Shown here: positions 40,510 through 50,582 of the stretch, one piece after another
Layout: each line of letters begins with the position of its first letter
Numbering within the stretch: position 1 is the stretch's first letter
Source: Prauserella isguenensis
GTDB lineage: Bacteria > Actinomycetota > Actinomycetes > Mycobacteriales > Pseudonocardiaceae
Length of the DNA stretch: 64,000 nucleotides
NCBI RefSeq assembly: GCF_014191605.1
Contig: NZ_JACHWU010000002.1
Coordinates: 806,001-870,000 of the forward strand
Direction of reading: 5' to 3'
Position numbers and translations under genes: made by a program
Notes under the pieces: model-generated
What the model saw: the letters and a program-made list of their open reading frames with translations, nothing else
Told to the model about the DNA's origin: nothing
The model's database searches: none

Positions 40510-42009
40510 TCACGTGTTGCCGGGGAATCGCAGGTTGACACCGCCCGCCGCGGCGGTCGACGGGGACGGCCAGCGTGTGGTGACGACCTTACGGCGGGTG
40601 AAGAAGTGGAAGCCCTCGGGGCCGTAGGCGTGGCTGTCGCCGAACAGCGAGTCCTTCCAGCCGCCGAAGCTGTAGTAGCCGACCGGCACCGGGATGGGCA
40701 CGTTGACGCCGACCATGCCGACCTCGACATCGCGTGTGAACCGCCGGGCGGCCGCGCCGTCGCCGGTGAACACGGCGGTGCCGTTGCCGTAGTGACCGGC
40801 GTTGATCAACTCCAGGGCCGCGTCGAGCGACTCCACCCGCACCACCGACAGCACCGGCCCGAAGATCTCGTCGGTGTAGATCGACATCTCCGGCCGGACG
40901 TGGTCGAACAGGGTCGGCCCGAGCCAGAACCCGTCGCCGTCGATGCCGGGCTCGCGTCCGTCGACGGCCAGCGTGGCGCCCGCCTCGGCGCCCGCATCGA
41001 TATAGGACGCGACCCGTTCCCGGTGCGCGGCGGTGACCAGCGGCCCCATCTCCGAGTCCGGCTCCCTGCCGTCCCCGACCCGCAGGCTGCGCATCCGATC
41101 GGTGATCTTCGCCACGAGCTCGTCGCCGATCGGGTCGACCGCGACGAGCACCGAAACGGCCATGCACCGCTCCCCCGCCGAGCCGAAGCCCGCCGACACC
41201 GCCGCGTCGGCCGCGCCGTCGAGATCGGCGTCGGGCAACACGGCCATGTGGTTCTTCGCACCACCGAGAGCCTGGCACCGTTTGCCCGCGGCGGTCGCCG
41301 TCTCGTAGACGTACCGCGCGATGGGCGTGGAGCCGACGAACGAGACGGCTTCCACGTCGGGGTGTTCGAGCACCGCGTCGACCGCGACCTTGTCGCCGTG
41401 GACGACGTTCAGCACGCCGTCGGGCAGCCCCGCCTCGGCGAGCAGTTCCGCGATGAGCAGCGACGCCGACGGGTCCTTCTCGCTGGGCTTGAGGACGACG
41501 GTGTTGCCGCAGGCGATCGCGCCCGGCACGAACCACAGCGGCACCATCGCCGGGAAGTTGAACGGCGAGATCACACCCACGACCCCGAGCGGCTGGGGTG
41601 TCGAATGCACGTCGACACCCGTCGAGGCGTTCTCGCTGAACTCGCCCTTCAGCAACTGCGGCGCGCTGCAGGCGTACTCGACGTTCTCCAGGCCGCGGGC
41701 GACCTCGCCCGCGGCGTCCGAGACGACCTTGCCGTGCTCGGCGGTGATCAGCCGGGCGAGGTCGTCCTGCCGCTGCGCGAGCAACTCACGGAACCGGAAC
41801 AGCACCCGCGACCGGCCCGCGAGCGAGGTGTCCCGCCACGCCGGGAAGGCCGCGGCGGCGGCGCGCACGGCCTCGTCGACCTCAGCGGGTCCCGCGAAGT
41901 CCACGTGGGCCTGCACCGTGCCGGTCGCCGGGTCGAACACCTCCCCGGTGCGCTCGGCGGTTCCGGTCCACGGCTTGCCCGCGATCCGGTGGGTGATGTG
42001 CTCGGTCAC
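40510..42009 (-). CDS. mmsA: CoA-acylating methylmalonate/malonate-semialdehyde dehydrogenase
   Basis: A 499-residue aldehyde dehydrogenase of the MmsA type. It begins TEHITHRIAGKPW. It shows VISPFNFPAMVPLWFVPGAI, LGGAKNHMAVLPDADLD and the catalytic Cys in GSAGERCMAVSV. The C-terminal block FGGWKDSLFGDSHAYGPEGFHFFTR is diagnostic. It converts malonate semialdehyde, from beta-alanine transamination, to acetyl-CoA and CO2. The GTG at 42009 has GAGGAG upstream. A longer start at 42063 (18 more residues) overlaps the aminotransferase stop and is a plausible alternative. Confidence 0.94.
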   Translation of the reverse strand: MTEHITHRIAGKPWTGTAERTGEVFDPATGTVQAHVDFAGPAEVDEAVRAAAAAFPAWRDTSLAGRSRVLFRFRELLAQRQDDLARLITAEHGKVVSDAAGEVARGLENVEYACSAPQLLKGEFSENASTGVDVHSTPQPLGVVGVISPFNFPAMVPLWFVPGAIACGNTVVLKPSEKDPSASLLIAELLAEAGLPDGVLNVVHGDKVAVDAVLEHPDVEAVSFVGSTPIARYVYETATAAGKRCQALGGAKNHMAVLPDADLDGAADAAVSAGFGSAGERCMAVSVLVAVDPIGDELVAKITDRMRSLRVGDGREPDSEMGPLVTAAHRERVASYIDAGAEAGATLAVDGREPGIDGDGFWLGPTLFDHVRPEMSIYTDEIFGPVLSVVRVESLDAALELINAGHYGNGTAVFTGDGAAARRFTRDVEVGMVGVNVPIPVPVGYYSFGGWKDSLFGDSHAYGPEGFHFFTRRKVVTTRWPSPSTAAAGGVNLRFPGNT

Positions 42010-42059
42010 GGTGTACTCCTCGGCGTTCGTCGAGTGCGGTGTTTTCGTGTCGAGTGCGG

Positions 42060-43376
42060 TCACGCGGCGGCGATCGATTCGCCGAGGATGCCGAGCGCCT
42101 CGGTGGTCTCCTCGTCGGTGAGCGTCATGGGCGGGGCGAGGCGCAGCACGTTGCCGTGCAGGCCGCCCTTGCCGATGAGCAGGCCGCGCGCCTTGGTCTC
42201 CTCCAGGACTCGGCCCGCCGCGGCGGGGTCGGGCTCCTCGCCGCCGGGCCGCACCAGTTCGACCCCGATCATGAGGCCCTTGCCCCGGACGTCGCCGACC
42301 AGGTCGTGACGGCCCTGGATCTCCCGGAGGCCCGCCATGAGCGTGGCGCCCTGTTTGGCGGCGTTGCCCTGCAGGTCGTGGTCGAGCACGTAGTCGAGGG
42401 TCGCCTGCGCGCCGGCGGTGGCCACGGGGTTGCCGCCGAACGTCGAGATGGAGTTCGCACCGAGGCAGTCCATGATGTCGCCCCGTGCGACGACGCCGCC
42501 GATGGCGAGGCCGTTGCCCAGGCCCTTGGCGAAGGTCATGACGTCGGGCGTGACGCCGTGCGCGTCGATACCCCAGAAGTGTTCGCCCGTACGGCCCCAG
42601 CCGGTCTGCACCTCGTCGGAGATCAGCAGGATGCCGTGCTCGTCGAGCACGTCCTTGAACGCGCCGAACATCCCGTCGGGCGGCGTGGAGAACCCGCCGA
42701 CGCCCTGGATGGGCTCGGCGATGAGTGCGGCCACGTCACCGGAGGTGGTGGTGCGCAGTACGTCGCGCAGGTCGTCGGTGCAGGCACGGATGTAGCCGGC
42801 GTCGTCGAGGCCGGCGAACGGGCCGCGATACCGGTATCCGCCGTGCACGTAGCTGACCTTCACCGGGGACAGCGAGCTGGCCGACCAGCCGCGGTTTCCG
42901 GTGATGCCGACCGTGCCGAACGCCCTGCCGTGGTACGAGTTCCGCAGCGCCAGGATCTGGTTGCTGCGGCGGTACTGCGTGGCGAGCATGAGCGCGGTCT
43001 CGTTGGCCTCGGTCCCCGAATTGGTGAAGAACACCTTCGCGTCCGGGATGCCGGAGAGCTCGGCGATCCGCTCGGCGAGCTCGACCTGCTTGCGGATCAG
43101 GTACAGGGTCGAGGTGTGCAGCACGCCCGTGTCGAGCTGCCGCCGCACCGCATCGGAGATCTCGGCGACGTCGTAGCCGATCGCGTTGGTGAGAATGCCG
43201 GCGAAGAAGTCGAGGTAGGTCCGGCCGTCGCCGTCGGTGACCCGCCTGCCGTCCGCGCTCGCGATCTCGATCGGCTCGTCGTAGTAGAGGGACATCCAGC
43301 TCGGCAGCACGGCGCGGTGTCGTTCCAGCAGGGGGCGCTCGGGCTGGTGGCTCTGCGGCACGTCCGGTTCCGTCAT
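42060..43376 (-). CDS. Class III aminotransferase, probable beta-alanine (omega-amino acid) transaminase
   Basis: A 438-residue PLP enzyme. It shows FFTNSGTEANETALMLA, SYHGRAFGTVGITG, LLISDEVQTGWGRTGEHFW and the PLP lysine in TFAKGLGNGLAIGG. The family covers GABA, beta-alanine and alanine-glyoxylate transaminases. Beta-alanine as amino donor is inferred, because the locus contains beta-ureidopropionase and a malonate-semialdehyde dehydrogenase. The ATG at 43376 (MTEPDVPQSHQ) has only a weak ribosome site. Confidence 0.9.
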   Translation of the reverse strand: MTEPDVPQSHQPERPLLERHRAVLPSWMSLYYDEPIEIASADGRRVTDGDGRTYLDFFAGILTNAIGYDVAEISDAVRRQLDTGVLHTSTLYLIRKQVELAERIAELSGIPDAKVFFTNSGTEANETALMLATQYRRSNQILALRNSYHGRAFGTVGITGNRGWSASSLSPVKVSYVHGGYRYRGPFAGLDDAGYIRACTDDLRDVLRTTTSGDVAALIAEPIQGVGGFSTPPDGMFGAFKDVLDEHGILLISDEVQTGWGRTGEHFWGIDAHGVTPDVMTFAKGLGNGLAIGGVVARGDIMDCLGANSISTFGGNPVATAGAQATLDYVLDHDLQGNAAKQGATLMAGLREIQGRHDLVGDVRGKGLMIGVELVRPGGEEPDPAAAGRVLEETKARGLLIGKGGLHGNVLRLAPPMTLTDEETTEALGILGESIAAA

Positions 43377-49571: not shown

Positions 49572-49583
49572 GAGGAGCCGGGT

Positions 49584-50582
49584 GTGGAGTTCGGAGTGGT
49601 ACTGCAGACCGACCCGCCCGCGCGGGACATCGTGCGGCTGGCGAGCCTGGCCGAGGACGAGGGCTTCCGTTACGGGTGGACGTTCGACTCGGTGGTGCTG
49701 TGGCAGGAACCGTTCGTCATCTATTCGCAGATCCTGGCCGCGACGTCGTCGATGACGGTGGGGCCGATGGTGACCAGCCCGGGCACGCGGGACTGGTCGG
49801 TCATGGCCTCGCTCTTCGCGACACTCAACGAGATGTACGGCAACCGGACGGTGTGCGGCATCGGACGTGGGGATTCGGCCCACCGCGTCATCGGCAAACC
49901 TCCGTCCACATTGGCCACGCTGCGGGACTGCATGGCCACCGTGAAGGATCTGGCCGAGGGCCGGGAGACGACCCTGCACGACACCGCGGTGCGCATGCCG
50001 TGGGTGTCGGGCGGCAGGCTCGAGATGTGGATGGCCGGGTACGGGCCGAAGGCGCTGCAGACCGTCGGGCAGCACGCCGACGGCTTCATCCTGCAATGCG
50101 CCGACCCGGCCATCGCGCGGTGGACGATCGGCGCCGTACGCGACGCGGCGAGCGCCGCGGGCCGTGACCCGGAGGGCATCACGATCTGTGTCGCGGCCCC
50201 CGCGTACGTCGGCGACAACGTGGCGCATCAGCGGGAGCAGCTGCGTTGGTTCGGCGGCATGGTCGGCAACCACGTCGCCGACCTCGTCGCCCGCTACGGC
50301 GACTCCGGTCCCGTTCCGCACGAGCTGACCGACTACATCGCGGCGCGGGAGGGTTACGACTACGCCCACCACGGCCGCGCGGGCAACCCGTCGACGGATT
50401 TCGTCCCCGACGAGATCGTCGACCGGTTCTGCCTGACCGGCCCCGCCGAGGCCCACGTGCAGCGGCTGGAGGAACTCGCCGAGCTGGGCGTCGACCAGTT
50501 CGCCGTCTACCTCATGCACGACCGGAGGGAGGAGACGCTGCGGTCCTACGGCCGCGACGTCATCGCCAAGCTCGCGTCGTGA
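49584..50582 (+). CDS. Luciferase-like (F420/flavin) oxidoreductase, CPS_4043-like (TIGR03842)
   Basis: A 332-residue LLM-family TIM barrel. It begins MEFGVVLQTDPPARDIVRLASLAEDEGFRYGWTFDS (in pieces) and shows TSPGTRDWSVMASLFATLNE and GIGRGDSAHRVIG. It resembles TIGR03842, a family described as related to methylene-H4MPT reductase and of unknown substrate. Cofactor may be F420 or flavin. It is the last gene of the pyrimidine operon, 12 bases after dihydropyrimidinase. Because no dihydropyrimidine dehydrogenase gene is present, a role in the first reductive or ring-modifying step is a reasonable hypothesis. RutA, the uracil monooxygenase, belongs to the same superfamily. Confidence 0.87.
   Translation: MEFGVVLQTDPPARDIVRLASLAEDEGFRYGWTFDSVVLWQEPFVIYSQILAATSSMTVGPMVTSPGTRDWSVMASLFATLNEMYGNRTVCGIGRGDSAHRVIGKPPSTLATLRDCMATVKDLAEGRETTLHDTAVRMPWVSGGRLEMWMAGYGPKALQTVGQHADGFILQCADPAIARWTIGAVRDAASAAGRDPEGITICVAAPAYVGDNVAHQREQLRWFGGMVGNHVADLVARYGDSGPVPHELTDYIAAREGYDYAHHGRAGNPSTDFVPDEIVDRFCLTGPAEAHVQRLEELAELGVDQFAVYLMHDRREETLRSYGRDVIAKLAS

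Follow-up and report, generated by a model that had tools for sequence, protein, structure and literature searches.

A 64,000-nt stretch of the Prauserella isguenensis genome (NZ_JACHWU010000002.1, positions 806,001-870,000; hereafter the window) was analysed, the genome being 4.95 Mb in size and rated 100% complete. Positions 40510-50582 of the window hold two divergent gene arms flanking a PucR-type regulator, as delimited from open reading frames and from NCBIfam and Pfam profile matches (Table 1). The genes that mark a reductive pyrimidine catabolic locus were found here: a dihydropyrimidinase, a ureidopropionase-type amidase, a nucleobase transporter, an aminotransferase and a semialdehyde dehydrogenase of the CoA-acylating malonate/methylmalonate type (MMSDH). 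These five had been named in an earlier note on this DNA, and profile matches placed each of them where that note had put it. The note had also pointed to an LLM-class protein of the TIGR03842 type beside the dihydropyrimidinase, which is borne out by its score, and this protein is the subject of the present analysis.

Table 1. Genes of the pyrimidine locus and its neighbours in the window, with profile scores and model cut-offs in bits
Feature	Position	Strand	Profile	Score (cut-off)
MMSDH	40510-42063	-	TIGR01722	680 (448.5)
Class III aminotransferase, putative beta-alanine/beta-aminoisobutyrate transaminase	42060-43376	-	NF004426	339.6 (552)
PucR-family transcriptional regulator, between the divergent arms	43489-45141	+	PF07905; PF13556	130.6; 47.6
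SSI-like subtilisin/protease-inhibitor gene, between regulator and transporter, apparently unconnected with the pathway	45178-45579	+	PF00720	
NCS1 nucleobase:cation symporter, proposed uracil/thymine importer	45766-47367	+	TIGR00800	414 (353)
CN_hydrolase-family amidase, proposed beta-ureidopropionase	47318-48160	+	PF00795	227
Dihydropyrimidinase/D-hydantoinase	48174-49571	+	TIGR02033	589.5 (393.25)
TIGR03842 LLM protein, proposed F420H2-dependent uracil/thymine reductase	49584-50582	+	TIGR03842	566.6 (295.45)
Siderophore-interacting FAD protein, adjoining the locus	50670-51491	-		
Cholesterol-oxidase-like protein, adjoining the locus	51600-53351		NF058674	572 (850, not reached)
TetR-like regulator, after the cholesterol-oxidase-like gene	53383			

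The forward genes from the transporter onwards are closely packed. The stop of the NCS1 gene overlaps the proposed GTG start of the amidase, gaps of 13 nt and 12 nt separate amidase from dihydropyrimidinase and dihydropyrimidinase from LLM gene, and a GA-rich, ribosome-binding-like stretch precedes the starts of these last three. From this spacing the four genes appear to form one tight, probably co-transcribed operon; a promoter and terminator scan of positions 43300-51600 gave no signal above chance. In the reverse arm, the proposed aminotransferase start is the ATG at 43376 and the MMSDH end at 42063 corresponds to the first possible start codon of its frame, given which the two genes overlap by 4 nt.

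It was noted that the profile matches define some of these proteins more closely than others. We take MMSDH, on family knowledge, to convert malonate semialdehyde to acetyl-CoA and its thymine-derived methyl homologue to propionyl-CoA. For the aminotransferase the class is certain, its best NCBIfam match being below cut-off, and the substrate in Table 1 is putative. The amidase scored 251 bits against the N-carbamoylputrescine amidase model (cut-off 410), and since neither of these two enzymes reached an equivalog cut-off, the substrates given for both are predictions. The LLM protein passed the curated cut-off of TIGR03842 (F420_CPS_4043, LLM class F420-dependent oxidoreductase). Its sole Pfam match was Bac_luciferase, with no DHO_dh-type FMN/Fe-S architecture (NF006183), and the closest named sequence among the matches listed was from Prauserella halophila (94% identity; L070).

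The usual first enzyme of the pathway, PydA/PreTA, had been reported as missing, and this proved true of the whole genome. The best PreA match reached 29 bits (cut-off 335) and sits in the only protein above the DHO_dh cut-off, which is read as PyrD; a second, weak DHO_dh match (24 bits over 46 positions) was below cut-off. A PreA/PydA encoded elsewhere in the genome was rejected on this result. As controls, 14 well-known genomes were searched with the PreA model, which was over cut-off in two, those of E. coli and Deinobacterium chartae, and the PreA query used in the locus search recovered its positive control, locus L063, at 826 bits.

We then assessed the distribution of these genes in 296 genomes sampled evenly across Actinomycetota, the window's own included. 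TIGR03842 was over cut-off in 62 genomes, the dihydropyrimidinase in 89 and PreA in two, and cofD was matched at E<=1e-30 in 169 (163 above cut-off). The LLM protein was found together with a dihydropyrimidinase in 61 of the 62 LLM genomes (Fisher exact test; p ~4e-40), and PreA was found in none of the 62, both PreA genomes being without the LLM gene. The earlier note had proposed a check on the co-occurrence of TIGR03842 with hydA in genomes lacking PydA, which these counts supply for Actinomycetota. The LLM genomes span 15 families, and in eight of these families there are also genomes lacking both the LLM gene and the dihydropyrimidinase. When labels were shuffled within families, the observed 61 was reached in 0 of 20,000 trials (mean 53.9, maximum 60); the shuffle took the 217 genomes with a family label and omitted the other 79, all of which lack both the LLM protein and the dihydropyrimidinase. 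The cofD gene was matched at the same threshold in 59 of the 62 LLM genomes versus 110 of the 234 others. The LLM gene lay within 20 kb of a dihydropyrimidinase gene in 51 of the 62 genomes; in the remaining 11, the dihydropyrimidinase was on another contig (eight genomes), on the same contig but farther away (G044 and G208) or absent (G194).

A similar picture was obtained from 80 related loci whose public records carry a title, which are the best 80 of at least 590 confirmed candidates, lean to close relatives and are in many cases metagenome-assembled. A dihydropyrimidinase (>=250 bits) was present in 71 of the 80, on the LLM strand in all 71 and within 150 nt of the LLM gene in 55. An amidase was found in 67 loci, an aminotransferase in 43, an NCS1 transporter in 40, a PucR regulator in 20 and MMSDH in 16. 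PreA was found in none of the 80 loci and in none of the 36 genomes reached through 37 of them, which may overlap with the 296-genome sample. Gene order differed among 15 LLM regions examined individually, and in some LLM regions a protein approximately 31% identical to a Leisingera Zn-hydrolase stands in the place of the CN_hydrolase.

These neighbourhoods bear on an explanation in which the substrates of the locus are hydantoins or dihydropyrimidines imported as such, while the LLM protein uses F420 on another compound, such as a hydantoin or a purine- or pyrimidine-derived ring like yanthine. TIGR02033 spans both hydantoinase and dihydropyrimidinase, NCS1 transporters include hydantoin and allantoin carriers, and allantoin permease equivalog models match the window transporter, all under their own cut-offs. 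Nine of the 80 loci have the LLM gene without a local dihydropyrimidinase, and, in the available text of PMC12507026, an F420 LLM protein of Chloroflexota is put forward as a reductase of yanthine in the breakdown of uric acid. However, the aminotransferase and MMSDH suit beta-alanine and beta-aminoisobutyrate, on family knowledge, rather than hydantoin-derived alpha-amino acids, and the LLM gene stays with the gene set whichever second hydrolase is present, CN_hydrolase or Zn-hydrolase. In addition, one of the two actinobacterial PreA genomes (G196; L063 8345-12212) has the order dihydropyrimidinase, Zn-hydrolase, PreA, with PreA next to the dihydropyrimidinase in the place taken by the LLM gene in other genomes. 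Direct uptake, an option of the earlier note, was made less likely by this comparative evidence, and we regard the explanation as a whole as unlikely.

The structure of the window protein was also considered. Its AlphaFold2 model is a confident barrel (pLDDT 90.6, pTM 0.91), for which Foldseek placed Mer, the F420-dependent methylene-tetrahydromethanopterin reductase, at the top (TM ~0.80, 24% identity), followed by F420-dependent glucose-6-phosphate dehydrogenases; the first FMN monooxygenase appeared at rank 27. Sequence searches against solved structures agreed that Mer is nearest. Both Mer models were matched below cut-off (TIGR03555, 100 of 348.7 bits; NF002619, 115.8 of 276 bits). An alignment of 45 TIGR03842 members contained 57 invariant residues, including D97 and Q171 (45/45 each). 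A loop of the form G-P-x-V-T-(N/S)-P-x-x-R, following strand beta-3, sits where Mer has a non-prolyl cis-peptide, with G60, V63, T64, P66 and R69 invariant in all 45 members, P61 in 42 and N65 in 42; position 65 is S in the other three, the window protein among them. D97 aligns with Mer Asp96, for which the available text of PMC11094777 describes, from a model, a contact with the pterin's pyrimidine ring. Q171 aligns near Mer residue 178, which is Asn by our own count in the 8qpl chain and Gln178 in the same text, and because of this discrepancy the claim for Q171 is limited to an aligned carboxamide. The uracil ring may lie over the deazaflavin as the pyrimidine ring of the pterin does in Mer.

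A second explanation makes the LLM protein an oxygenase using FMNH2 and O2, which would open or hydroxylate the pyrimidine ring like RutA, the F420 linkage being coincidental. RutA too is a luciferase-fold protein acting on uracil, and the FMN monooxygenases SfnG and bacterial luciferase were among the lower-ranked structural matches. A RutA-type product would need no dihydropyrimidinase, yet 61 of the 62 LLM genomes have one, and the nearest folds are those of F420 enzymes. The RutA model (TIGR03612) was over cut-off in 0 of 28 LLM genomes (weaker matches in seven, best 123 of 498 bits), and at E<=1e-20 it matched nothing in the genome of the window. A RutA-type route was rejected as the leading explanation for lack of a RutA protein over cut-off in those 28 genomes, and ring modification of this kind, raised as an option in the earlier note, now appears improbable. 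The LLM gene also ends three F420 operons outside Actinomycetota, which are described below.

Among 72,556 plasmid records, the LLM protein was matched at E<=1e-40 in 12 (Leisingera, 10; Paracoccus, 1; Streptomyces, 1), the Streptomyces record having no annotation at that place, and a search started from the Leisingera protein recovered the same 12. Phage records gave no match to the LLM protein at E<=1e-20. On the Leisingera aquaemixtae plasmid, the one of the 10 records that was examined, the LLM gene is the last of the operon cofG-cofH-cofD-cofC-cofE-npdG-LLM, and the genes pntA-pntB-aminotransferase-Zn hydrolase-hydA-NCS1 run divergently from it; the LLM protein is 41% identical to that of the window. 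The Paracoccus alcaliphilus plasmid has the same cofG-H-D-C-E-npdG-LLM operon, and its annotation shows no hydA within 12 kb. A third such operon was found in genome G479, where one stretch holds a dihydropyrimidinase (hydA), NCS1, Zn-hydrolase, TetR, cofG-H-D-C-E-npdG-LLM and MMSDH, and where PreA was not over cut-off genome-wide. Two further features of these plasmids were noted. The NAD(P) transhydrogenase pntAB heads the Leisingera row of pyrimidine genes (L167 925-3942), as if supplying NADPH for F420 reduction, and a DUF1330 gene accompanies the F420 operon and LLM gene in both Paracoccus (L150 6083-6373) and Leisingera (L167 9710-10003).

A further sample comprised 249 presumed Pseudomonadota genomes, G479 among them, all from the phylum to which G296, titled Gammaproteobacteria in its record, belongs. 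PreA was over cut-off in 39 of these, cofD in five and the LLM protein in two, and both LLM genomes had cofD and lacked PreA. One genome, G503, carries cofD and PreA without TIGR03842. A tree was built from the 45 members with a single distant outgroup. In it, the proteins of Paracoccus, Leisingera and G479 formed one supported clade, joined to two divergent groups of actinobacterial proteins (97/97); the very long outgroup branch makes the root uncertain. The G296 protein (L125) was placed within Acidimicrobiia, at modest support (91/82), and has no local pyrimidine genes. This placement makes the title or the purity of the assembly doubtful, and misbinning or transfer is possible.

The F420 operons also bear on a third explanation, in which the LLM protein is an F420-dependent downstream or redox-balancing enzyme, such as an F420-reducing dehydrogenase, and an unrecognised enzyme elsewhere reduces uracil. 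Its fold is common to F420-dependent glucose-6-phosphate and alcohol dehydrogenases, the PyrD-only role of the genome's DHO_dh protein is presumed, and a further reductase may exist in view of the 27 actinobacterial genomes that have a dihydropyrimidinase with neither LLM protein nor PreA. However, the later steps are already covered by MMSDH and the aminotransferase, and the Leisingera, Paracoccus and G479 operons carry their own F420 reductase gene, npdG, which makes it more likely that the LLM protein consumes F420H2. We consider this explanation the most remote of the three.

Taken together, F420H2-dependent uracil reduction is well supported by comparative genomics. The earlier note had offered reduction with either F420H2 or flavin, and the F420H2 version is favoured by the co-occurrence with dihydropyrimidinase, the lack of PreA in the searched LLM genomes, the linkage to F420 genes in the Leisingera, Paracoccus and G479 loci, and the Mer-like fold. 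It is therefore very probable that the TIGR03842 protein is an F420H2-dependent uracil/thymine reductase, unrelated to the FMN/Fe-S protein PydA/PreTA and functionally replacing it. From these comparisons we infer the cofactor, the substrate, the site of hydride transfer, the physiological role and the regulation by PucR.

Several observations weigh against this assignment. Three of the 62 LLM genomes gave no cofD match (190-370 contigs, 90-96% complete), and 28 of the 89 dihydropyrimidinase genomes lack the LLM protein; the 27 of these that also lack PreA suggest that some dihydropyrimidinases serve otherwise or use a further unknown enzyme. One genome rated 91% complete (G266; L064 7062-9327) has an amidase and dihydropyrimidinase pair 75% and 68% identical to that of the window, with no LLM protein over cut-off and no PreA, for which either an incomplete assembly or another first step may account. 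A dihydropyrimidinase is absent from nine of the 80 loci. Seven of these are short (3.2-13.1 kb), including L125 with flanks of 4 and 8 kb, and the Streptomyces loci L113 and L120 have full flanks. In L113 (9257-13571; Streptomyces sp. CB02366), TIGR03842 is flanked by an aspartate decarboxylase (PF02261) on one side and an amidase on the other, and no dihydropyrimidinase lies within 10 kb, a neighbourhood hinting at another use of the LLM protein. Beta-alanine is a product of both uracil breakdown and aspartate decarboxylase. Of the five presumed Pseudomonadota genomes with cofD, three lack the LLM protein, and one of these three has PreA, so F420 can occur there independently of the LLM protein. 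At the residue level, the distant paralogue used as outgroup (L002) has G60, V63, T64, P66 and R69 as well, so the loop is not diagnostic of TIGR03842 versus other LLM proteins, and the position of the Mer residue Glu6, catalytic according to the available text of PMC11094777, is V in 30, T in 12 and C in three of the 45 members. Finally, the available text of PMC10714638 states that the mureidomycin protein SSGG-03002, compared with TIGR03842 by description only, formed no product in vitro. As a separate observation, the G266 pair adjoins dTDP-sugar genes.

With the TIGR03842 protein as an F420H2-dependent reductase, the pathway could run as follows. Uracil would enter via the NCS1 symporter, and F420 would be reduced by NADPH, a step for which the loci of Leisingera, Paracoccus and G479 have npdG and Actinomycetota would use other F420 reductases. 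On the LLM protein, F420H2 would donate a hydride from its C5 to ring position C6 of uracil or thymine, and with a proton added at ring C5, uracil would become dihydrouracil. The dihydropyrimidinase would open the dihydrouracil ring, the nitrilase-family amidase would release NH3 and CO2, the aminotransferase would convert beta-alanine to malonate semialdehyde, and MMSDH would form acetyl-CoA, or propionyl-CoA if thymine is the source.

More broadly, TIGR03842 is likely a new F420H2:uracil/thymine 5,6-reductase that provides the usual first pyrimidine-catabolic step in much of Actinomycetota. Under the same proposal, some Pseudomonadota (the Leisingera plasmid and probably G479) would hold a self-contained uracil-burning cassette with F420 synthesis, NADPH:F420 reductase and, in Leisingera, a transhydrogenase. 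If true, the cassette would explain the purpose of F420 in those Pseudomonadota, an orphan step would receive its enzyme, a family described as a hypothetical equivalog would become a testable enzyme, and growth on uracil would offer a simple phenotype for the study of F420. More speculatively, the enzyme could also reduce 5-fluorouracil.

An F420-dependent catabolic uracil reductase appears to be new to the literature searched, in which TIGR03842 was not named and no title or abstract opening dealt with an F420-dependent pyrimidine-catabolic reductase; subscription papers and preprints lay mostly outside the reach of this search, so priority is unproven. The available text of a 2015 paper states that the reductive uracil pathway genes of Mycobacterium smegmatis were not all identified (PMC4617892), and that of a 2018 phylogeny of F420 LLM enzymes does not mention pyrimidines (PMC6279831).

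Compared with known systems, the proposed enzyme shares its reaction, its pathway position and the kind of downstream genes with PydA/PreTA, as in G196, where PreA stands beside a dihydropyrimidinase and a Zn-hydrolase. The two differ in that PydA/PreTA is a DHO_dh-type FMN/Fe-S protein with NAD(P)H or ferredoxin as electron donor, as given in the available text of PMC7332683, whereas the window protein is a TIM-barrel of an unrelated family with F420H2 as its proposed donor. RutA resembles it as a luciferase-fold protein acting on uracil, but carries out an O2-dependent ring opening and was not over cut-off in the 28 LLM genomes searched. Mer is closest in fold and sequence among solved structures and is matched at the cis-peptide-site loop, at D97 (Asp96) and by the carboxamide of Q171; it differs in its approximately 24% identity, in the catalytic Glu6 that is V, T or C in the LLM proteins, in its models, whose cut-offs they do not reach, and in that the LLM proteins are found in bacterial pyrimidine loci. 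Two further systems can be likened to TIGR03842 by description only. In the uridyl peptide antibiotic clusters, the putative F420/FMN oxidoreductase SSGG-03002/NpsU is genetically required for reduction of the uracil C5=C6 bond, according to the available text of PMC10714638, but acts in antibiotic biosynthesis. The Chloroflexota yanthine reductase, in the available text of PMC12507026, is an F420 enzyme of the luciferase family (PF00296) that is suggested to stand in for another reductase within a gene cluster of purine degradation, and differs from the proposed uracil reductase in its purine-derived substrate.

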